A DNA stretch of 64,000 bases from Xenococcaceae cyanobacterium MO_188.B32. Its GTDB lineage: Bacteria; Cyanobacteriota; Cyanobacteriia; Cyanobacteriales; Xenococcaceae. Positions 14,292 through 57,150 of this stretch are shown here, in pieces. The position numbers and the translations under genes were made by a program. A model generated the notes under the pieces. It saw nothing but the letters and a program-made list of their open reading frames with translations. It was not told where the DNA came from and made no database searches. Numbering within the stretch: position 1 is the stretch's first letter; the number at the start of each line of letters is the position of its first letter. The DNA lies in NCBI GenBank assembly GCA_030065635.1, contig JASJDJ010000007.1, forward strand, positions 1 through 64,000. Direction: 5' to 3'.

Positions 14292-14816
14292 CTAATCAAG
14301 CTCTAGTCCATATTGATCGTAGTAGTCTAAGATCATTAACTTCAGTTGCTCTTCTGTGGGTGCTACAAATTTCGAGCGATTACTTTTTACGGGGGTAGTG
14401 ATGGCATCTTTGAGCGTCATTCCCTGCTGTATTCTCAGTCTCAACGATCTTACTTGCCACCCAGAGATTGCAGCCCATTTTTCTAGGGATAGACTAATAC
14501 CACTATACTCATAATTTTTATTTGGTTGTTTAATTTTCTGACCTTGAGTTGAGACTGGAGTAGTGAGAGCTTCTAATATTGTCCATTTACCCATCATACG
14601 TTTTTTCACCACGGAATACTTAATTTTGTAGTGCTTACACCAGTCTTTTAAACTCTTAACCTCACCATTAATCTCATAGGTTGATTCTTTTTTTTGGTAT
14701 ATATTTTGTTTAGGGGCTATTATACCGATAGGGGTAATTATCGGAATTAGAAAATTATTTATGGCAATTATTCTATATTTTTTATGAACCAAAACTATAC
14801 TCGCCTTTCCAAACAA
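14292..14816 (-). CDS. Protein with two helix-turn-helix-like repeats
   Basis: A 174-residue protein with two related blocks of about 45 residues (around 48-90 and 100-143). Each runs from a tyrosine-led strand through SLxxW and a recognition-like helix to ALTTPV or AITTPV. This SLsxWA...R...G.t..eAlttPv pattern occurs in phage and mobile-element proteins, often beside HNH nucleases, and is thought to bind DNA. The N-terminal 40 residues are hydrophobic and basic and may be spurious; the start at 14816 overlaps the upstream regulator gene by 22 bases. It may be co-transcribed with that gene. Function unknown. Confidence 0.5.
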   Translation of the reverse strand: MFGKASIVLVHKKYRIIAINNFLIPIITPIGIIAPKQNIYQKKESTYEINGEVKSLKDWCKHYKIKYSVVKKRMMGKWTILEALTTPVSTQGQKIKQPNKNYEYSGISLSLEKWAAISGWQVRSLRLRIQQGMTLKDAITTPVKSNRSKFVAPTEEQLKLMILDYYDQYGLELD

Positions 14817-16633
14817 TTAATAATACGATCGGCAAGACGTTTAGCTACCACTGGCTTATAAATAAAATCATCAGCACCAGTAGCAAAAACTTGCTCGCGA
14901 ATAGCTATATCTGTATGAACACTCAGAAACAGAACGGGTAATTTACACCAGTAAGGATGAGTCCGTAGCACCTTACATAATTCAATGCCACTCAGGTAAG
15001 GCATTTCGATATCCAATACCAACAAATTAGGGTTGACAGCTTGAAGAACGTCCCAGAATTGTCGAGAATCTTCTAGAGTAGTAACTTGAAATCCCCAAGG
15101 TTGCAGCAGAGAAGGTAAAACCCTGAGTAATTCTACATCGTCATCGACAATCATGACTTTTTTACCCAGAGAAAAGTTGCGTAAAACTTGTTGGCAAAAG
15201 GTAATAGTTTGTAAAGGAGTTATGGGGTGTTGTAAATAAAAATAGCCTCCATGTCTGGCTACTTGGAGTCGATCTTGAAATCGATCGCGATCGGCAAGTA
15301 CGATAACTGGTATAGATGGTTCTATTAATTTAAATTCAGCAATTAGAGATAAACGATTCCATCGAGATAGGGGATTAGTAGAGTCAGCAAAAGATATTTT
15401 CAGTAAAACTAGATTGGGAAGAGTATTTTTTGGTTGTTCTTCCAGCCAAATTTTCGCTAATTCTGGAGATGGTACGATCGCGGTTTTAATTCCTAAGTTG
15501 TTTGCTTCTTGGACTAGTTGTTCGGTAAAGATGGAGTCATCATCAACAATCAGTATTAAAGGGGAATGTTCTTCTAATTGGTAAGATATCTGCTGAGAAA
15601 AATTGCTTTCCTTCGTTAATTCTTGACGTAAGCTTTGGAGGGTAGTTTCCAACTGCCATAATTGTTGGGGATTTTGTTCCCCTTGAAGTAATTGTTCTAG
15701 TTGTCTGGCTAGTCGAGAACCTCGATCGAAACCAAACAAGCCCAGATTTCCCGCCAGACTATGAGCCGTCACAATCGCAGATAAACGATCGCTCGTTTCG
15801 ATATTACCTTGTTTTAAAGCTGCTATAGCTGAGTCTAAAGTGATTAATTGCTGATGAGATTTAGAGCGATATTTTGACCAAGCTGTAGTTAAAGCGGCGA
15901 TGTGTTTTTCTCGACGGTCTTTGGGTTGCTCTGCTCGATCGAGAAGAGAGTTATTCTCAGGTGGAGGTTTTAAACAATAGCCTCTTCCCCGTACAGTGTC
16001 AATCGGATCTTCAGGTAAACCAGCTAATTGTAACTTTTGTCTCAAGCGTCTGAGATGAGAACGAACCGTTGCTTCCGCTGGATATTCTGCCGATGACCAA
16101 AGATTTTCGATAATATCTTCAATACTTAAAACTTCTCGATCGTGACGGAGAAATAATTCTAATAATCTGTATTCTTTAGCTGTTAGAGATAATAATTCTC
16201 CCTGATAAGTAACTTCACAATTACTAGAATCGAGTTTCAATTCTCCCCAACTCAATACAGACAGAAAATCACAATTCAAGCGACGTAGCAAAGCACGAAT
16301 TCGGGCTGCCAATTCTTCCACATCAAAAGGCTTACAAAGATAATCATCGGCTCCTGCATCCAGTCCTCTAATTTTATCTTGGCTAGTATTACGAGCAGTT
16401 AACAACAGGATAGGAGTATCACAACCATGGGCGCGAAAACGCTTACACAAACTAATACCATCGAGTTTGGGTAAAGACCAGTCTAGAATGATTAAATCGT
16501 AGTTATAAGTCGAACCATAAATCCATCCCTGTTCCCCATCAGTCGCCGTATCGATGGCATAATTATGCTTTGTCAGCATTCTTGGGAGTACATCAATTAA
16601 AGTTGCATCATCATCAACTAATAAAATTCTCAT
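14795..16633 (-). CDS. RcaC-like multidomain response regulator
   Basis: A 612-residue regulator with receiver (1-120, phosphoacceptor D51), OmpR-type winged helix (125-225, ending IDTVRGRGYCLKPP), histidine phosphotransfer domain (about 245-320, H291 in HSLAGNLG), a degenerate receiver (358-485, acidic pocket DDD at 364-366 but no phosphoacceptor Asp, reading LVLLKIS) and a C-terminal receiver (491-608, D541). RcaC of chromatic acclimation has the same order: receiver with D51, OmpR domain, HPt, C-terminal receiver. RcaC binds the L-box and switches antenna genes by light colour. A single-receiver regulator and a photoreceptor-like kinase lie directly upstream on the same strand, as expected for the RcaE-RcaF-RcaC relay. 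Function here is inferred from architecture and context. Confidence 0.8.
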   Translation of the reverse strand: MRILLVDDDATLIDVLPRMLTKHNYAIDTATDGEQGWIYGSTYNYDLIILDWSLPKLDGISLCKRFRAHGCDTPILLLTARNTSQDKIRGLDAGADDYLCKPFDVEELAARIRALLRRLNCDFLSVLSWGELKLDSSNCEVTYQGELLSLTAKEYRLLELFLRHDREVLSIEDIIENLWSSAEYPAEATVRSHLRRLRQKLQLAGLPEDPIDTVRGRGYCLKPPPENNSLLDRAEQPKDRREKHIAALTTAWSKYRSKSHQQLITLDSAIAALKQGNIETSDRLSAIVTAHSLAGNLGLFGFDRGSRLARQLEQLLQGEQNPQQLWQLETTLQSLRQELTKESNFSQQISYQLEEHSPLILIVDDDSIFTEQLVQEANNLGIKTAIVPSPELAKIWLEEQPKNTLPNLVLLKISFADSTNPLSRWNRLSLIAEFKLIEPSIPVIVLADRDRFQDRLQVARHGGYFYLQHPITPLQTITFCQQVLRNFSLGKKVMIVDDDVELLRVLPSLLQPWGFQVTTLEDSRQFWDVLQAVNPNLLVLDIEMPYLSGIELCKVLRTHPYWCKLPVLFLSVHTDIAIREQVFATGADDFIYKPVVAKRLADRIINCLERRV

Positions 16634-16722
16634 TCGTAACCAAACTAATTCAACATCTCACTAGTGCCCTATTTTCTATTTCCCATTCTCTCTTTACGGA
16701 AAAACTCCGAACTCCGAACTCC

Positions 16723-17100
16723 CTATTCCCATTGCAACATTTTAGCGATCCGACTAGCTAAAGTCATCGAGTTAAAAGGCTTAGTAATTACACCCACAAC
16801 TCCTAAACTGTGAAACAGGTTTTTATCTGCAGCTTGAGTTTTCGCCGTCAGAAAAATGACAGGAATCGATTGGGTTTTGGCATTGGCTTTTAACTGAGAT
16901 AGGGTAGAAATTCCGTCCATATCAGGCATCATTACATCCAGAAGAATTGCATCAGGTTGTTGACTGGCTGCTACAGCAATTCCTTCTAAACCTGAAGACG
17001 CGATCGCTACTTGCCAACCAGTTTCAATCTCGATTCCCACTTGAACAACTTCTTGAATAGTTTCTTCATCGTCGATCAGTAAGATGCATTTATTGGTCAT
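16723..17100 (-). CDS. RcaF-like single-receiver response regulator
   Basis: A 125-residue stand-alone receiver with the acidic pair in LLIDDEE, phosphoacceptor D55 in LLDVMMPDMDG, and the conserved T/K switch residues (FLTAK, ITKPF). It has no output domain and would shuttle phosphate between a kinase and another regulator, as RcaF does between RcaE and RcaC. Its start overlaps the end of the kinase gene by 11 bases, which implies translational coupling. A paralogue of the same length lies at 59090-59467. Confidence 0.85.
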   Translation of the reverse strand: MTNKCILLIDDEETIQEVVQVGIEIETGWQVAIASSGLEGIAVAASQQPDAILLDVMMPDMDGISTLSQLKANAKTQSIPVIFLTAKTQAADKNLFHSLGVVGVITKPFNSMTLASRIAKMLQWE

Positions 17101-19207
17101 TGCTATCGCCTCCTTTTGGTAAGACTATAGGTAGAGTGAAGTAAAAAGTACTACCTCTTTCCAAACGACTTTTCGCCCAAATTTTTCCGTTGTGTTCTTC
17201 AATAATTTGACGACAAATAGCCAAACCCAAGCCAGTACCACCTTTTTTCCGAGAATCAGAAGAATCGACTTGCTGAAAACGCTCAAAGATAGTTTCTAGT
17301 TGATTGGCAGGAATGCCTTGTCCTTGATCTTTAACTTCAAAGGTGATGTAGGAAATTGATTTTTTTCTTTTAGTTGTTTTTCTCTGATATTTCCTCTTTG
17401 CCGATAGCCATACGGTACTATCAGGAGGAGAAAACTTAATTGCATTACTCACAAGATTGGTAAGAGTTTGTACAATGTAATCGGGATCTGCCCAAACCAT
17501 AAAATTAACAGGCTTAGCCAAGAGTTTAACTTCATGTTCTTGTGCCATAGTTTGCATAGTTTGGACAGCTTCAATCATTAATTCCTTGGCTTTACAGGCT
17601 TTTTTATTCATCTTGACTTTGCCTGATTGAATACTCTGTAAATCGAGAACATTGTTAACTAAGCGCACTAAACGTTCAGTTTGTTCATCCGCAATATTGA
17701 GCATTCGTTGTCCCTTACTAGAAAGGTTGCCTAGTTTACCTGTCGCCAGAATTTTGAGAGAACTGTGAATTGAAGTGAGAGGAGTACGTAATTCGTGACT
17801 GACAACAGAAATAAACTCGTCTTTCATCCGTTCGATCGCTTTTCGATCGCTAATATCACTGGTGAGAGCAAAAAATCCTTGTACTACATTCTTTTTACGT
17901 TCATTAAAATGGGGGATATAAGTAACACTAAGAGAATGAACCCATCCATCAAGGAGAATAATATCGGTTTCATAATTAACTGTTTGTCCTGATAGTGCTG
18001 TCTCTACATATTCGCGAATCTTCTGGTATTCTTCCTCTCCGTGAACTTTTTTAAGATGACAACCATCAATCTTAGTCGGAGAAAGTCCCAACCAGGTTTG
18101 ATAAACTTCATTATTGAAACGATAACGCTGTTGTTTATCTACATAGGCAATTAAAACTGGCAGTCCATTAGCGATCAGGCGTAATTGTTCTTCACTACGA
18201 CGTAAAGCTGCTTCTGCATCTAGTCGATCGTTAATTTCTTGTTGAAGATTGCTATTAGCTTCTCTTAACTTAGTGGTACGTTCAGCAACTAAGTCTTCTA
18301 AATTCTCTAGTAACTCTGCTTGAGATAAAGCAATCCCAATCTGATCTGCTAATTGCTGCATTAGTTCCAATTCAAAATCCGTCCACTGTCTGGGTGTGGC
18401 ACATTGATGAGCAATCAACAAACCCCATAATCGATCGCGATGTTGAGTTTCCTCAGTTTGGGATTTAAGATTTTGCAGAATAGGTACTACCAATTTGGCT
18501 TTTACCATCCACTCATCCATAAATTCAACTAGACATTCAGCTAATGCCTTGTCAGCACGATGGACATCCGCGATCGCTTGAACTCTCCCTTCTGCATATA
18601 ATTCTCGGTAATCTTCAGGAAAAACCTCTTCAGGAAACTCTACCCCTAGAATAGGAGCGTAATCAGGTAAAACTGCCTCGCTAATTGGCATACCAGTTCC
18701 ATTAGCAAAAACCTGATAAATTAGTACTCGATCTGCTTGGAGAATTCTTTGTACTTCTGTAACCGCAGTATGCAGGATTTCCTTAAGTTGAAGCGATTGA
18801 CGAATTTTGAGAGTAACATCGGAAAACAACTGCACTCTTTGGTGTTGGCGATGAAGTTCTGCTTCTGCTGCTCGTTGAAGATTAGTAACGTCTCTTAAAA
18901 CCAGTAAATTGTATTCAGGTAATAAATCCTTCACTCGACTATACTCTACAGTTTTGCTCTCGCCTTGGGGATGTAGAATTGGCATTTTGGCAATATCTTG
19001 ACCTTCCAAGTCCAAAGGACAAGTCACAAAGTTTCTTATAGATTGACCGATCAGTTCCTCTCTAGTCGAACCAAATAACTCGCAAGCCGAGGGATTAACT
19101 TCCACAAATCGCAAAGCGCGATCGATAATGATAATTGCTTCAAAGGAGCGTTCAAATACAGCTTGGAGCAATAATTTCTGTTCGGAAAAATCTCCTACTC
19201 GCTCCAT
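17090..19207 (-). CDS. Cyanobacteriochrome-like (RcaE-type) sensor histidine kinase
   Basis: A 705-residue soluble kinase. Order: N-terminal PAS (about 10-110), GAF (about 125-300), coiled coil, second PAS (about 335-455), HisKA with phosphoacceptor H471 in SHELRTPL, and HATPase with NLVSNAIKF, DQGQGIP and GTGLGLAI. The GAF is of bilin-binding type: Cys225 is at the canonical chromophore position in AECLVEFMDEW, followed by KAKLVVPIL and LWGLLIAHQC. The residue after the cysteine is Leu rather than the more usual His. GAF-PAS-kinase architecture, overlap with an RcaF-like gene and an RcaC-like gene downstream all point to the green/red photoreceptor RcaE. Chromophore binding and colour are inferred. 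Confidence 0.8.
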   Translation of the reverse strand: MERVGDFSEQKLLLQAVFERSFEAIIIIDRALRFVEVNPSACELFGSTREELIGQSIRNFVTCPLDLEGQDIAKMPILHPQGESKTVEYSRVKDLLPEYNLLVLRDVTNLQRAAEAELHRQHQRVQLFSDVTLKIRQSLQLKEILHTAVTEVQRILQADRVLIYQVFANGTGMPISEAVLPDYAPILGVEFPEEVFPEDYRELYAEGRVQAIADVHRADKALAECLVEFMDEWMVKAKLVVPILQNLKSQTEETQHRDRLWGLLIAHQCATPRQWTDFELELMQQLADQIGIALSQAELLENLEDLVAERTTKLREANSNLQQEINDRLDAEAALRRSEEQLRLIANGLPVLIAYVDKQQRYRFNNEVYQTWLGLSPTKIDGCHLKKVHGEEEYQKIREYVETALSGQTVNYETDIILLDGWVHSLSVTYIPHFNERKKNVVQGFFALTSDISDRKAIERMKDEFISVVSHELRTPLTSIHSSLKILATGKLGNLSSKGQRMLNIADEQTERLVRLVNNVLDLQSIQSGKVKMNKKACKAKELMIEAVQTMQTMAQEHEVKLLAKPVNFMVWADPDYIVQTLTNLVSNAIKFSPPDSTVWLSAKRKYQRKTTKRKKSISYITFEVKDQGQGIPANQLETIFERFQQVDSSDSRKKGGTGLGLAICRQIIEEHNGKIWAKSRLERGSTFYFTLPIVLPKGGDSNDQ

Positions 19208-19316
19208 AATTAAAAGATTATTAAAGTTTTTTACTGATGGTAACGCAAATTAAAGTTTCTTAAATCAAAGCTTCAATAAAATTAATTTATGGAAAAATCG
19301 TAACTCCGAACTCATA

Positions 19317-20066
19317 TTAGGGAGCATCAAACAACATAGTATTCATGTACTGCTCTGTCCAAGTCTGACCCAAAGACTTTGCCAATACCCTGCGCGTCTT
19401 ATCATTCTGTTGCTGCTGAGTGCAATAATAACGTTGTCCTGCCAAAAGTTCTGTTTTCTCAAAGCTAGAAGTTACGGGACAGGTAACTATAGCCATTTGA
19501 CAGTGCAAAGTTAAAAACTGTCTAACTCGATAAAGAAACAGTCTTTCTTCTTCAGCATTTATAGGACGGACAAATAGACAAAATTTAGAAAAAATATTGC
19601 CCCATGGTGGTAAATCTCTGGGTTGAGAAAATTCAACAGGAAGAAGATTAGCTAAGACATATCGATAAGCCTTAGGTAAAATGCAATTTTGAGTAACAGG
19701 AGATAGATCGACGATCGCAGCCGAAATTCCCTTTTGACTACCAACAAGATCGACCCCAAATATAGGTAGAGGATAATTAGGACGGGGAAACATTACACAA
19801 TGGAGAATATCCAAGCGATCGCCAACTTGTGCCAACTCCAAATGTAACTTACGAAACTGAGGAGTTTGATAGCAGTGATTTTCGATAATTAGCTTTTCTC
19901 CTTCCAAATTCCCTTCCACATAACCAAGGTCTTCGGGGATATCATAGGGGGATAGATTTAAGTTACGTTCCCAAATCTCTTCGATAAAATCTGCCAATTT
20001 ACGAATGAGAATGTGTTGACGTTCTCTGAGAGAAGATTGAATAGTTGTAACCATTGCCTTAAGCAT
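19317..20066 (-). CDS. pcyA: Phycocyanobilin:ferredoxin oxidoreductase, copy 1
   Basis: Reduces biliverdin IXalpha to phycocyanobilin in a four-electron, ferredoxin-dependent reaction; phycocyanobilin is the chromophore of phycocyanin and of cyanobacteriochromes. The 249 residues carry [35 protein letters not shown] and [10 protein letters not shown]. The catalytic histidine and glutamate (HLE), second histidine and the aspartate (here GVDLV) are all present, as is C-terminal NDKTRRVL. It is more diverged than copy 2 (56383-57150): GCDIVAG is GVDLVGS here. It sits between the photoreceptor relay and the phycocyanin operon, on the same strand. The start could also be the Met four codons later. 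Confidence 0.92.
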   Translation of the reverse strand: MLKAMVTTIQSSLRERQHILIRKLADFIEEIWERNLNLSPYDIPEDLGYVEGNLEGEKLIIENHCYQTPQFRKLHLELAQVGDRLDILHCVMFPRPNYPLPIFGVDLVGSQKGISAAIVDLSPVTQNCILPKAYRYVLANLLPVEFSQPRDLPPWGNIFSKFCLFVRPINAEEERLFLYRVRQFLTLHCQMAIVTCPVTSSFEKTELLAGQRYYCTQQQQNDKTRRVLAKSLGQTWTEQYMNTMLFDAP

Positions 20067-20082
20067 GAATTATGAGGAATAA

Positions 20083-20213
20083 GTAGGGGCGAATGGTGAA
20101 GCACTTGCGGGGGTGAAGCATTGCCGCCAAAGGGGGTCTCCCCCATGAGCAAATGCTGAAAGGGTTCCCCGACATAAGCAAAGTGCTTCACCCGAAGGGC
20201 CATTCGCCCCTAC
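20083..20213. repeat. 131-bp palindromic element between cpcD and pcyA
   Basis: Perfect 14-base ends, GTAGGGGCGAATGG and its complement, enclose further inverted blocks (TGAAGCACTT with AAGTGCTTCA) and GC-rich internal hairpins. Related fragments (CCCTTCGCCCCTAC) occur near 20610. It resembles a MITE or large REP-type element and could affect read-through from the cpc operon into pcyA. Confidence 0.7.
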
Positions 20214-20243
20214 AGTAATTGCTTTCCAATAAATTGCTAATCA

Positions 20244-20516
20244 CTAATTAGTTTCATCAACAGCATTAGAATCATTACTTTCAGATGCACCTAGAGGTTT
20301 GATATTAACGATCGAGCCTCCCATGCGGGTAATGCGTAGCATTTCTTCATTCATACGATTGTAAGGAACTTGAATAAAAACGTTACTACTATTACGGAAA
20401 GGATAACTATTGCGATCGTTTTGGGTGTTTTGCCTTAATCCAGTTACCTCATAGACAAAAATACGGTTTTTAGCAGCGGAACTAGTTCTACCACCGAATA
20501 CAGATTGACCCAACAT
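20244..20516 (-). CDS. cpcD: Phycobilisome rod-capping linker
   Basis: A 90-residue CpcD-domain protein that sits at the membrane-distal end of the phycocyanin rod and limits its length. The pattern is clear: MLGQSVFGG start, RIFVYEVTGLRQN, YPFRNSSNVFIQVPYNRMNEEMLRITRMGGSIVNI. It is the last gene of the cpcBA-linker operon, 125 bases after the preceding linker. The C-terminal 15 residues are polar and variable. Confidence 0.94.
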   Translation of the reverse strand: MLGQSVFGGRTSSAAKNRIFVYEVTGLRQNTQNDRNSYPFRNSSNVFIQVPYNRMNEEMLRITRMGGSIVNIKPLGASESNDSNAVDETN

Positions 20517-20641: not shown

Positions 20642-21502
20642 CTAAGCCAAAGTAACGCTAGCAACCTTACCGCCCATTTTGTTGATTCGTTGGAGAGTGG
20701 GTGTTAACTGTTCGTAAGAAACTAATAACGCCCGACTGGCACGGCGTACTTTCGGGTATCCCGCTAAACTCATACCCGCGATCTCAACCCGATAGATGCG
20801 ACCTTCCTTGTTAGAATTTCTAAAGGTGCGCTCTGGAGTAACCCCACGATTAGAATCTTGATATGCCCAACCGCTACCACCACCAGAAGGGGCAACAACT
20901 GCTGAGGCATTATTTTGAGCTAGTTCTTTTGCCAACCGAGATGGTTTACCTGCCACTTGAGCGCGATCGCTATTAGCATAGCCCCGATAAAGTTGGAACA
21001 TACGGGTAAAGCCAACAGTTTTTTGCTGAGTTTGAGTATTAAAACCTCGGTAATAGGGAACAATATCATCCCCAAAGTTTTCATCGTATTCAGCAGAATC
21101 AATATAATCATCAATATCTGCCTCAAAACCTTTATTCTGATAGAGATCGAGGTGGTAAATTACCTCAGATTCATCATAGGGTGCGCGACCGAGTAAATGT
21201 TTTAAGTTCAACTCGATCACTCTGGTTTGAAAATTGTTGTAAAGAAACTTGGTTTTATATAGTTCTGATTTTGCTACTGCCCTTACAAAGTCCCGTACCG
21301 TAATTGAGCCATTACAGAGTAAAGATTCTGTAGCCGTCAACCGTTCAGAAGCCATAATATAATCATTGCCCAGCACTTGACGGTAAACTGCGCGAATAAC
21401 TGCCTGAATATTTTCTTGACTACTGTTATAGCGTAATTCTAACGGTTGACTATCGTTGAAGGCAGAAACTCCGAGACGAGATGCTGCTGCTGTAATTGCC
21501 AC
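20642..21502 (-). CDS. cpcC: Phycocyanin-associated rod linker (CpcC-type), third in operon
   Basis: A 286-residue linker with an N-terminal PBS-linker domain (about residues 15-180; [48 protein letters not shown]) and a C-terminal CpcD-like domain (about 230-284). It joins adjacent phycocyanin hexamers in the rod and tunes energy flow. It starts [15 protein letters not shown] like its paralogues, but its CpcD-like domain differs most from the other two ([15 protein letters not shown], ending [13 protein letters not shown]), so it probably occupies a different rod position. Confidence 0.92.
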
Positions 21503-21702: not shown

Positions 21703-22521
21703 CTAGGCATTGGTAATACTTAGAACTTGGCAGCCTTTTTGATTGAGTTTTTGTAAAGTTGCAGAAAGTCTTTCGTAAGGTACGACATACTCTTTCAAAC
21801 TACGACGCAGTTGGGGCGATCTTCCCCTTGCTCCCTGAGTAACCCGAAGTCGATATAAATTACTTCGCTCGGTGGTAGTCGTACCAGATAGAGAGCCTCC
21901 ACCTCCTGGACTACGAACAGGAGTTGCTATATTGCGAGCTAAATCGTAGGTTAAACGAGGTCTACCCGTATTACCTTGAGCGCGATCGCTATTAGCATAA
22001 CCCCGATACAATTGAAACATACGAGTAAAGCCTACAGTTTTTTGCTGGGTTTGGGTAGCAAAACCTCGATAGTAGGGAACAATGTTTTCACCAAAGTTTT
22101 GTAGGTATTCCGCTGAGTCGATATAAGAATCAATATCTTTCTCAAAACCTTCATTTTGATAGATATCTAGATGCTCGATAATTTCAGATTCATCATAGGG
22201 TGCGCGACCGAGGAGATGCTTAAAATTCAACTCAATGGTGCGGGGATGATAGTTGTTATAGAAGAATTTTGACTTGTATAATTCTGATTTAGCCACCGAG
22301 CGGACAAAATCTCGTACATTTATAGAACCATTACAGAGCAAAGATTCTGTAGAGGTAAGACGCTCAGAAAGCATTACATAATCGTTGCCCAAAACTTGAC
22401 GATAAACTGCTTTGATAGCTGCTTGGGCATTTTCTTGCGTCCAGTTAGAACGCAGTTCCAAAGGTTCAAGAGTGCTAAAAGCTGAAACTCCCAGACTAGA
22501 AGCTTCATAAGTAATTGCCAC
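21703..22521 (-). CDS. cpcC: Phycocyanin-associated rod linker (CpcC-type), second in operon
   Basis: A 272-residue rod linker with PBS-linker domain ([26 protein letters not shown]) and C-terminal CpcD-like domain ending [15 protein letters not shown]. It is closest to the 22567-23385 copy, sharing nearly all of the [20 protein letters not shown] block and the QKGCQ tail, which points to a tandem duplication. The spacer to the next linker is 200 bases, against only 45 bases to the upstream linker. Confidence 0.92.
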
Positions 22522-22566: not shown

Positions 22567-23385
22567 TCAAGCATTAGTAATACTGAGAATTTGACAACCT
22601 TTTTGATTGAGTTGTCGTAAAGTCAGAGAGAGTCTTTCGTAAGGAACGACATATTCATTTATAGTGCGTCGGAGTTGGGGAGCTTTTCCTGTCGCTCTTT
22701 GAGTTGTTCGTAGTCTATACAACCCTTCTCTTTCAGTAGCTTCTTTGCCCTTGAGTACTTTTCCTCGACTCGCACTAAGTATAGGAGTTGGTAGATTACG
22801 AGCCAAATCGTAAGTTAAACGAGGGCTACCCGTATTACTTTGAGCGCGATCGCTATTGGCGTAGCCTTTATACAGCTGAAACATACGAGTAAAGCCTACT
22901 GTTTTCTGTCCTCGTTGAGTAGAAAAGCCCCGATAGTATGGGACGATATTGTCACCAAAATTCTCAACATACTCATCAGAATCGATATAGGAATCTATAT
23001 CTGCCTCAAAACCTTCATTCTGATAGATGTCGAGATGCTGAACTATCTCAGATTCATCATAGACGGCACGACCGAGCAAGTGTTTAAAGTTTAACTCGAT
23101 GGTGCGAGGATGATAATTGTTATAAAAGAATTTTTCCTTGTATAGTTCTGATTTCGCTACTGCCCTCACGAACTCCCGTAATGAAATCGAGCGATCGCGC
23201 AATAAAGACTCAGCACTAGTAAGGCGTTCGGAGTTCATCAGATGATCGTTGCCCAAAACTTGTCGATAGACAGCATCGATCGCAATTTTAATATCCTCTA
23301 GACTACTAGTAGAACGTAATTCTACTAAACTGCTATCTTTAAAGGCCGAGACTCCCAGACGAGATGCTGCTGCTGTAATTGCCAC
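22567..23385 (-). CDS. cpcC: Phycocyanin-associated rod linker (CpcC-type), first in operon
   Basis: A 272-residue rod linker, the first after cpcA. PBS-linker domain at about 15-180 ([34 protein letters not shown]), a variable basic hinge ([14 protein letters not shown]), and a CpcD-like domain ending [16 protein letters not shown]. It is separated from cpcA by an intrinsic terminator (23496-23570), so its expression should be lower than that of cpcBA, matching the few linkers needed per rod. Confidence 0.92.
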
Positions 23386-23582: not shown

Positions 23583-24071
23583 CTAGCTGAGAGCGTTAAT
23601 AGCGTACTCAATATAGGAGTTAGCTTCTACAGCAGGGTCGCCACTTAAACCGTGGTTTGCTTTAATATATTTGAGAGCTTCTACATACCAGCTAGGAGAT
23701 AATTCAAAAGTAGCGTTAATTTCAGCCACTCCAGCAATCAAATAATCATCCATGGGACCAGTACCACCTGCAACCAAACAGTAGGTGATCATCCGTAAAT
23801 AGTAGCCGATATCACGAGCGCACTTAGCTTTACCTTCAGGAGTAGAAGCATAGTTTGGTCCCTGCATTTGAGTAGTGTAGGGAAACTTTTGGTAAACTGC
23901 TTGAGCAGCACCATTAACTAAGCTTTCAGCTTTGTTAGTCAGAGCTTGAGCAGCTTCTAAACTAGCGTTAGCTTGACGAAAACGACCAAAAGCAACTTGA
24001 ATTTCGCTGCTGCTGAGGAAGCGTCCTTGAGAGTCTGCAGTAGATACTGCTTCTGTAATGGGGGTTTTCAT
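23583..24071 (-). CDS. cpcA: Phycocyanin alpha subunit
   Basis: Alpha chain of C-phycocyanin, a globin-like light-harvesting protein in the phycobilisome rods. With the ATG at 24071 it has 162 residues, the family length, starts [19 protein letters not shown], and places the bilin cysteine at C84 in [11 protein letters not shown]. An upstream in-frame ATG at 24110 would add 13 residues with no family match and is rejected. It lies 63 bases after cpcB. Confidence 0.97.
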
Positions 24072-24134
24072 AGTGTTATGCACCTCTGAATAAATTTCTA
24101 CTATCGACAACTAAACGATGAAACAAGGAGACAA

Positions 24135-24653
24135 CTATCCAACTGCTGCTGCTGCGCGATCGAAATAACTACCTAATTCCGACATCAAAGAACTACAATC
24201 TCCTTGAGTTATGCCATCTCTGTCATTAGCAATGGCGATGGCAGCATTTTTCATTTTGTTGACAGCCTCAGATACTGAACCACCAGGAACACCCAAAGCT
24301 ACATAAGTTTCCCGTAAACCATTCAAACAACGATCTTCTAGAACACTTCCATCACCAGAAAACATAGCGTAAGTTACGTAACGCAAGATAATTTCCATAT
24401 CTCGCAAACAAGCTGCCATCCGTCGGTTAGTGTAAGCATTACCACCAGGAGCAATTAACTGAGGTTGTTCGGCAAACAGAACACGAGCAGCATTAGCAAC
24501 AATAGCAGAAGAGTTACCAGTGATGCGGTTCACCACATCCATGCGTTTGTTACTTTCCGCTACCATATTTCTGAGCGCATCAAATTGACTGCTATTAAGA
24601 TAGTCACCTCTGGCATCAGCTTGAGAAATAACTCTGGTAAATGCGTCAAACAT
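24135..24653 (-). CDS. cpcB: Phycocyanin beta subunit
   Basis: Beta chain of C-phycocyanin, 172 residues. It carries the two bilin-binding cysteines C82 ([13 protein letters not shown]) and C153 (TQGDCSSL), and Asn72 (GGNAYTN), which is N-methylated in characterised phycocyanins. It is the first gene of the cpc operon; an AGGAGA ribosome-binding site lies seven bases upstream of the ATG. A 355-base leader/promoter region with an L-box-like element precedes it. Confidence 0.97.
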
Positions 24654-25008
24654 TAAAATTTCTCCTGAATAATCAAATTTTTAGAGACCTGAATCCTAAC
24701 CAACGTTCACAGCAATCTATGAGGTTTAGGCAGAGCTAAAAACAAGTTAAATGTAGAACCTAATACTTTTATTCATGAATTAACCCAAAAATTAGCTCTA
24801 GTAATTTTTTGAGTTAGGAATTCAGTGGCTTTTGGACTAAGACTATTCAAGCAATGTCTTTGTGCAATTTTCGTGCAGTTTTAGAGATAAATACTAAACT
24901 ATTGTTGTTTTTTGTAACTAAAGATTAAGCAGAAATGGGCATAATACTCAATCCTGTTGAAATGCACCATTTAAAAGTTATTTAAATAAGCAATGCGGAT
25001 TTATGGGA
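24654..25008 (-). promoter_or_regulatory. cpc operon promoter and long leader
   Basis: 355 bases without a gene between glpK and cpcB. The cpcB-proximal part is AT-rich and would be a long 5' leader, as is usual for cpc operons. An L-box-like direct repeat lies at 24861-24878. I could not assign the transcription start with confidence. Confidence 0.6.
24861..24878 (-). promoter_or_regulatory. L-box-like direct repeat upstream of cpcB
   Basis: On the cpcB strand the sequence is CTGCACG-AAAA-TTGCACA. The RcaC-binding L-box of chromatic acclimation is, from memory, TTGCACA-N4-TTGCACA; here the cpcB-proximal half is exact, the distal half matches 5 of 7, and the spacing is exact. It lies about 210 bases upstream of the cpcB start codon. 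Confidence 0.6.
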
Positions 25009-56382: not shown

Positions 56383-57150
56383 ATGTTGGAAACCTCAAAG
56401 TCTTCACTGCGCCAAGAGCAACACCCTTTAATTTGTCAGCTAGCCGATTTAATTATTGACTATTGGCATCGATATCTCAATCTATCACCTTATTCTTTAC
56501 CAGAAGGATTGGGTTATGTAGAAGGGAAACTAGAAGGGGAAAAACTCAGAATTGAAAATCGCTGCTATCAAACACCTCAGTTTCGTAAAATGCACTTAGA
56601 ATTGGCTAAGGTAGGGGCTAATTTAGATATTCTTCATTGTGTGATGTTTCCTCGCCCAGAATATCCCTTACCAATGTTTGGCTGCGATATAGTAGCAGGA
56701 AAGGCAGGAATTAGTGCTGCGATCGTCGATCTTTCTCCTACTAGTCCAGAAAAAATTCTTCCTCAAGCTTACCAAAATATTCTCTCGACATTACCTCCTA
56801 GCCAATTTTCTCAGCACCGCGAGTTACCACCATGGGCTGATATATTTTCGGAGTTTTGCCTGTTTATTCGTCCTCAAACCTCTCAAGAAGAACAAGATTT
56901 TCTCGAACAAGTAAAAAGTTTTTTGGCAGTTCACTGTCAGCAAGCTATTAAAGCTCAACCTTTATCTCCTCAGCAACAAAAATTATATCTAGAAGGACAA
57001 AATTATTACTGTACCAAACAACAAAAAAACGATAAAACTCGTCGCGTGTTAGAAAAAGCTTTTGGCCCCGATTGGGCTGAATATTATATGAATTCGGTTC
57101 TGTTTGATATGCCAGAAGCCGAGACTTCTGAAACTAATTCTCGAAAATAA
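56383..57150 (+). CDS. pcyA: Phycocyanobilin:ferredoxin oxidoreductase, copy 2
   Basis: The canonical-looking PcyA of this window, 255 residues. It keeps the family blocks almost unchanged: [54 protein letters not shown], and [13 protein letters not shown] near the C-terminus. All catalytic His, Glu and Asp positions are present. It produces phycocyanobilin from biliverdin. A MITE lies just upstream, and a sugar-binding lipoprotein gene follows 15 bases after the stop. Confidence 0.95.

Follow-up and report, generated by a model that had tools for sequence, protein, structure and literature searches.

Is the imperfect direct repeat upstream of the phycocyanin gene cpcB in the Xenococcaceae cyanobacterium MO_188.B32 a working target of the regulator RcaC, or merely a sequence that resembles one? 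The consensus for the RcaC site, the L-box, is two direct TTGCACA half-sites with a 4-nt gap. In the window analyzed here, a stretch of 64,000 nucleotides from contig JASJDJ010000007.1, the intergenic region bounded by the end of glpK (25009) and cpcB reads CTGCACGAAAATTGCACA on the minus strand at 24861-24878. The first half, CTGCACG (24872-24878), matches the consensus at 5 of 7 bases, and the second, TTGCACA (24861-24867), at all seven. With the AAAA spacer between them, the repeat is direct, with a period of 11 bp, and agrees with the consensus at 12 of 14 bases with exact spacing, the mismatches falling at positions 1 and 7. It lies 208-225 nt 5' of the cpcB ATG (24653). The first-pass annotation had reported this sequence on the cpcB strand, with one exact half, one half of 5 in 7 and an exact 4-base gap, and its sequence, strand, coordinates, halves and spacer all check out. 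On the comparative evidence presented below, the site is very probably the RcaC-binding L-box of a red-light-inducible cpc2 operon in a type-III chromatic acclimation (CA3) system. It would be a slightly altered L-box whose place is kept across many cyanobacteria, in a type of switch that is already known.

Table 1. Genes and regulatory features of the cpc2 locus (window coordinates)
Feature	Coordinates	Strand	Basis
Conserved leader hairpin, 5' arm CTGAATTCCTAAC	24813..24825	-	leader comparison
Conserved leader hairpin, 3' arm GTTAGGATTCAG	24689..24700	-	leader comparison
Predicted RcaC site (L-box)	24861..24878	-	sequence, perfect orthologous boxes, genome-unique core
Extended -10 TGC-TTGAAT (consensus TGnTTnAAT)	24845..24853	-	box-anchored logo, 47 leaders
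Predicted transcription start	24838	-	inferred, 7 nt after -10
cpcB, C-phycocyanin beta	24135..24653	-	TIGR01339 above cut-off
cpcA, C-phycocyanin alpha	23583..24110	-	TIGR01338 above cut-off
Rod linker (PBS_linker_poly + CpcD)	22567..23385	-	domains
Rod linker (PBS_linker_poly + CpcD)	21703..22521	-	domains
Rod linker (PBS_linker_poly + CpcD)	20642..21502	-	domains
cpcD rod-capping linker	20244..20516	-	NF058509 above cut-off
pcyA, phycocyanobilin:ferredoxin oxidoreductase	19317..20066	-	NF002760 above cut-off
rcaE-type photosensor kinase (PAS-GAF-PAS-HisKA-HATPase)	17090..19207	-	PDB matches, photocycle residues
rcaF-type single receiver	16723..17100	-	domain, conservation
rcaC-type regulator (REC - winged helix - Hpt - REC)	14795..16633	-	Pfam domains, conservation, clade

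The plain consensus is too permissive to identify such a site. With up to 3 mismatches allowed, the window holds 4 matches against 4.6 expected, which is chance level, and the whole genome holds 28 matches at 2 or fewer mismatches and 326 at 3 or fewer. The site alone therefore could not decide the question, and these counts are what a chance match to a 14-base consensus would have in its favor. We fetched cpcB loci from named genomes and scanned their upstream regions for the box. At the same place before the orthologous cpcB, perfect TTGCACA-N4-TTGCACA repeats stand in six Pleurocapsales loci (L031, L033, L034, L037, L039 and L040), and one-mismatch boxes are present in L032 and L036, as well as in L041, which is from outside the Pleurocapsales. 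Conservation at the orthologous position, including these perfect copies, already refutes a chance match; that the core occurs only once in the genome and that all 23 composite sites precede phycocyanin genes (both described below) also speak against it, and we regard its probability as negligible.

Over 78 cpcB loci, the best match to the box is bimodal, with 34 loci at 0-2 mismatches, 42 at 4-6 and two at 3; scrambled control repeats gave none at 0-1 mismatches. Moreover, the box is present at every one of the 20 loci that have rcaE or rcaC in the vicinity, and neither gene is near any of the 42 box-free loci (Fisher P 4e-9, for related species that are not independent).

Aligning 47 leaders on the box yielded a sharper motif. 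Both TGCAC cores are invariant and variation falls mainly at positions 1, 7 and 12, a degree of within-box conservation that is inflated because the boxes were gathered under a mismatch ceiling. A short way downstream of the box, TTGnTTnAAT, an element on which the leaders were not selected, hardly varies. The refined core, TGCAC-N5-YTGCACA, has a single match in the 6.39-Mb genome, the window site, which also ranks first among the 28 plain-consensus matches when they are scored with a matrix built from non-Pleurocapsales cpcB boxes (background about 0.05 per Mb per strand at its score). The first-pass annotation had offered random occurrence across the genome as grounds for dismissing the motif; the loose form is indeed scattered in this way (the 326 matches above), and the orthologue-refined form is not.

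Joining the core to the downstream element through seven bases gives the composite pattern TGCAC-N5-YTGCACA, seven bases, TGnTTnAAT, a genome-searchable definition of the L-box promoter. Across 195 genomes of the order it finds 23 sites, all before phycocyanin genes, at 75-395 bp from 18 cpcB, 3 cpcA and 2 rod-linker genes. RcaC targets could thus be predicted from sequence, the pattern having produced no false match in this set. In other genomes of the order (L193, L194 and L195, L196) the L-box promoter precedes cpcA-first or rod-linker operons rather than cpcB, and RcaC may therefore control partial rod operons there. The window's own variant, CTGCACG-N4-TTGCACA, also occurs before pcyA in another cyanobacterium (L053). 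By their ORF lists, the one-mismatch matches elsewhere in the family (L142, L144, L145 and L165) have no recognizable adjacent antenna gene. Perfect repeats at L181:299-316 and L182:5115-5132 are likewise followed by no recognized antenna gene, the latter lying 50 bp before a 1172-aa ORF; each of these two is either a chance occurrence or an unrecognized RcaC target. All six are treated here as chance or unexplained.

Position within the promoter supports the same assignment. The -10 hexamer (24845-24850) begins 10 bp 3' of the box, a distance that is fixed among the orthologues, and the TG and the final T of the extended -10 are each present in 47 of 47 box-anchored leaders. No -35 hexamer was found in the cpcB promoter; the L-box sits in its place, spanning by our estimate about -40 to -23 relative to the predicted start near 24838. 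This arrangement fits an activator of the OmpR/PhoB class acting on an extended -10 promoter through polymerase recruitment. The second half-site was considered as a -35 hexamer in its own right and rejected, since it stands just 11 nt from the conserved -10. Farther upstream on the minus strand, 24905-24918 reads GTTACAAAAAACAA, kept in most Pleurocapsales as GTTACAAAAACAaACAAAA; it looks like one half of the HLR1 site of RpaB.

The genes behind the operon supply a candidate regulator. On the same strand, the cpc operon is followed in order by pcyA, the RcaE-type kinase, RcaF and RcaC, and the gene order cpc2-(pcyA)-rcaE-rcaF-rcaC is found again in relatives. The earlier reading had placed the box in the promoter region of an operon downstream of an RcaC-like gene. 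The promoter placement stands; the gene order has to be reversed, because on the transcribed strand rcaC follows pcyA, rcaE and rcaF, some 7.5 kb downstream of cpcB. In the PDB, the kinase matches best to 8k9o and to 7ckv, an entry named RcaE (E 2e-67 for 7ckv). Its FPEEVFP, ECLVEF and VKAK motifs are conserved; we take them to carry the Glu, Cys-Leu and Lys of the RcaE green/red photocycle. In RcaC, the phospho-acceptors (D51, the Hpt His and the C-terminal Asp) are conserved. The RcaC proteins of box-bearing loci have the motif EATVRSH(L/I)R in common in their recognition helix and group together as a clade (93/93), separate from three paralogues in the genome.

These features bear on whether the repeat might serve another OmpR/PhoB-class regulator, an RcaC paralogue or RpaB, instead of RcaC. 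The genome does encode four RcaC-like paralogues at 40-45% identity. However, boxes co-occur with linked rcaE/rcaC, and each of the three paralogues tested has a different recognition helix and groups outside the RcaC clade, so that such a regulator is a very improbable owner of the site. The link that the first-pass annotation drew between the RcaC-like regulator and this likely target is upheld by position, conservation, genome uniqueness and rcaEFC linkage, and it connects the relay of a CA3 sensor with a probable target in the poorly studied Pleurocapsales.

An L-box could also have been inherited and since have lost its useful affinity in this genus, leaving cpc2 weakly regulated or constitutive. 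Most relatives have perfect boxes, the window has two mismatches, and the same-genus locus L035 has three (CTGCACG-N4-CTGCACA, one base more lost than in the window); given this further loss and the 5/7 first half, RcaC affinity may be lower in the genus. Yet substitutions are found only where other boxes differ too, as they do at positions 1 and 7 among the orthologues. Neither TGCAC core has changed, the spacing and the extended -10 are preserved, and rcaE, rcaF and rcaC are intact, with conserved phospho-acceptor sites and recognition helix. We therefore think decay unlikely, and a functional RcaC site remains the preferred reading.

In the published model, red light leads to phosphorylated RcaC (RcaC~P), which activates cpc2 and pcyA through L-boxes (PMC8256508). 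For the present locus, we infer a phosphorelay that in red light would run from the neighboring RcaE-type kinase by way of RcaF to RcaC. Once phosphorylated, RcaC would occupy the 11-bp direct repeat head-to-tail and bring RNA polymerase to the extended -10 (TGnTTnAAT), turning cpc2 on. The gene that the box precedes, cpcB of an rcaEFC-linked operon, belongs to the CA3-type class (cpc2, pcyA, pebAB, cpeC). The RcaC L-box of Fremyella diplosiphon cpc2 and pcyA, known here through the citation of Li, Alvey, Bezy, and Kehoe (2008) in PMC8256508, is likewise a TTGCACA-type direct repeat with a 4-nt gap before an inducible phycocyanin operon, in an organism with RcaE, RcaF and RcaC. In contrast to that system, here the first half is CTGCACG, pcyA lies behind cpc2 without its own box, and no matching box was found at pebAB or the phycoerythrin (PE) operon. 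Another parallel is Pleurocapsales cyanobacterium LEGE 10410 (L036), listed as RcaE/CA3 (PMC9415938), which shares the order cpc2-pcyA-rcaE-rcaF and a box before cpcB; its box, TTGCACG-N4-TTGCACA, has one mismatch rather than two and a longer spacing to cpcB. The CcaR G-box is also a direct-repeat site for an OmpR-class regulator of antenna genes driven by green/red light, but differs in sequence (CTTTCCGATTTCTTTACGATTT) and in its sensor, CcaS (PMC8256508).

The rest of the genome looks as that of a CA3 organism should: a second cpcBA lies beside pebAB on contig C185, and a CpeB-like gene on C209 (53% to CpcB, identified by similarity and length only) probably encodes phycoerythrin beta. Neither a matrix scan of this genome nor a search with the refined core revealed an L-box in front of pebAB or the PE operon. 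Within the window there are two pcyA-type bilin reductase genes, one behind cpc2 (19317-20066) and one on the plus strand at 56383-57150. The true cpcA ATG is likely to be near 24071.

No strong terminator was found between cpcD and pcyA, and pcyA has no L-box of its own at this locus; a single box may therefore act for the entire unit, rcaEFC included. With pcyA-rcaE-rcaF-rcaC directly behind cpc2 and without a strong terminator (14795-20516), the layout suggests that autoregulation of rcaEFC via the cpc2 L-box is possible. More tentatively, and with considerable doubt, we propose that the L-box regulon of this lineage may have collapsed to one promoter driving a single cpc2-pcyA-rcaE-rcaF-rcaC unit, whose expression a conserved hairpin near the mRNA 5' end would strengthen. 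If so, red light would induce at once the pigment protein, the enzyme for its chromophore and the relay that senses the light, a positive feedback.

The hairpin is a feature of these mRNAs that can be tested on its own, apart from the L-box promoter, and begins about 14 nt into the predicted transcript. Both arms (CTGAAT-TCCTAAC and GTTAGGA-TTCAG) are found again in the L-box cpc2 leaders of several families, enclosing loops of a few to more than 150 nt, and the stem is absent from L-box-free cpcB leaders. An Rfam search of the leader returned no match apart from one sub-threshold snoRNA match on the other strand. In distant species both sides have changed in 4 of 9 pairs. Across 24 leaders 98.5% of the cells in the arms pair, with variation mostly to G-U, a percentage that shuffles also reach; since double changes are few and the support is mostly sequence conservation, we treat the hairpin as a lead. 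In the leaders of some relatives (L147 and L157), repeat-like DNA is inserted in the hairpin loop, with both arms intact.
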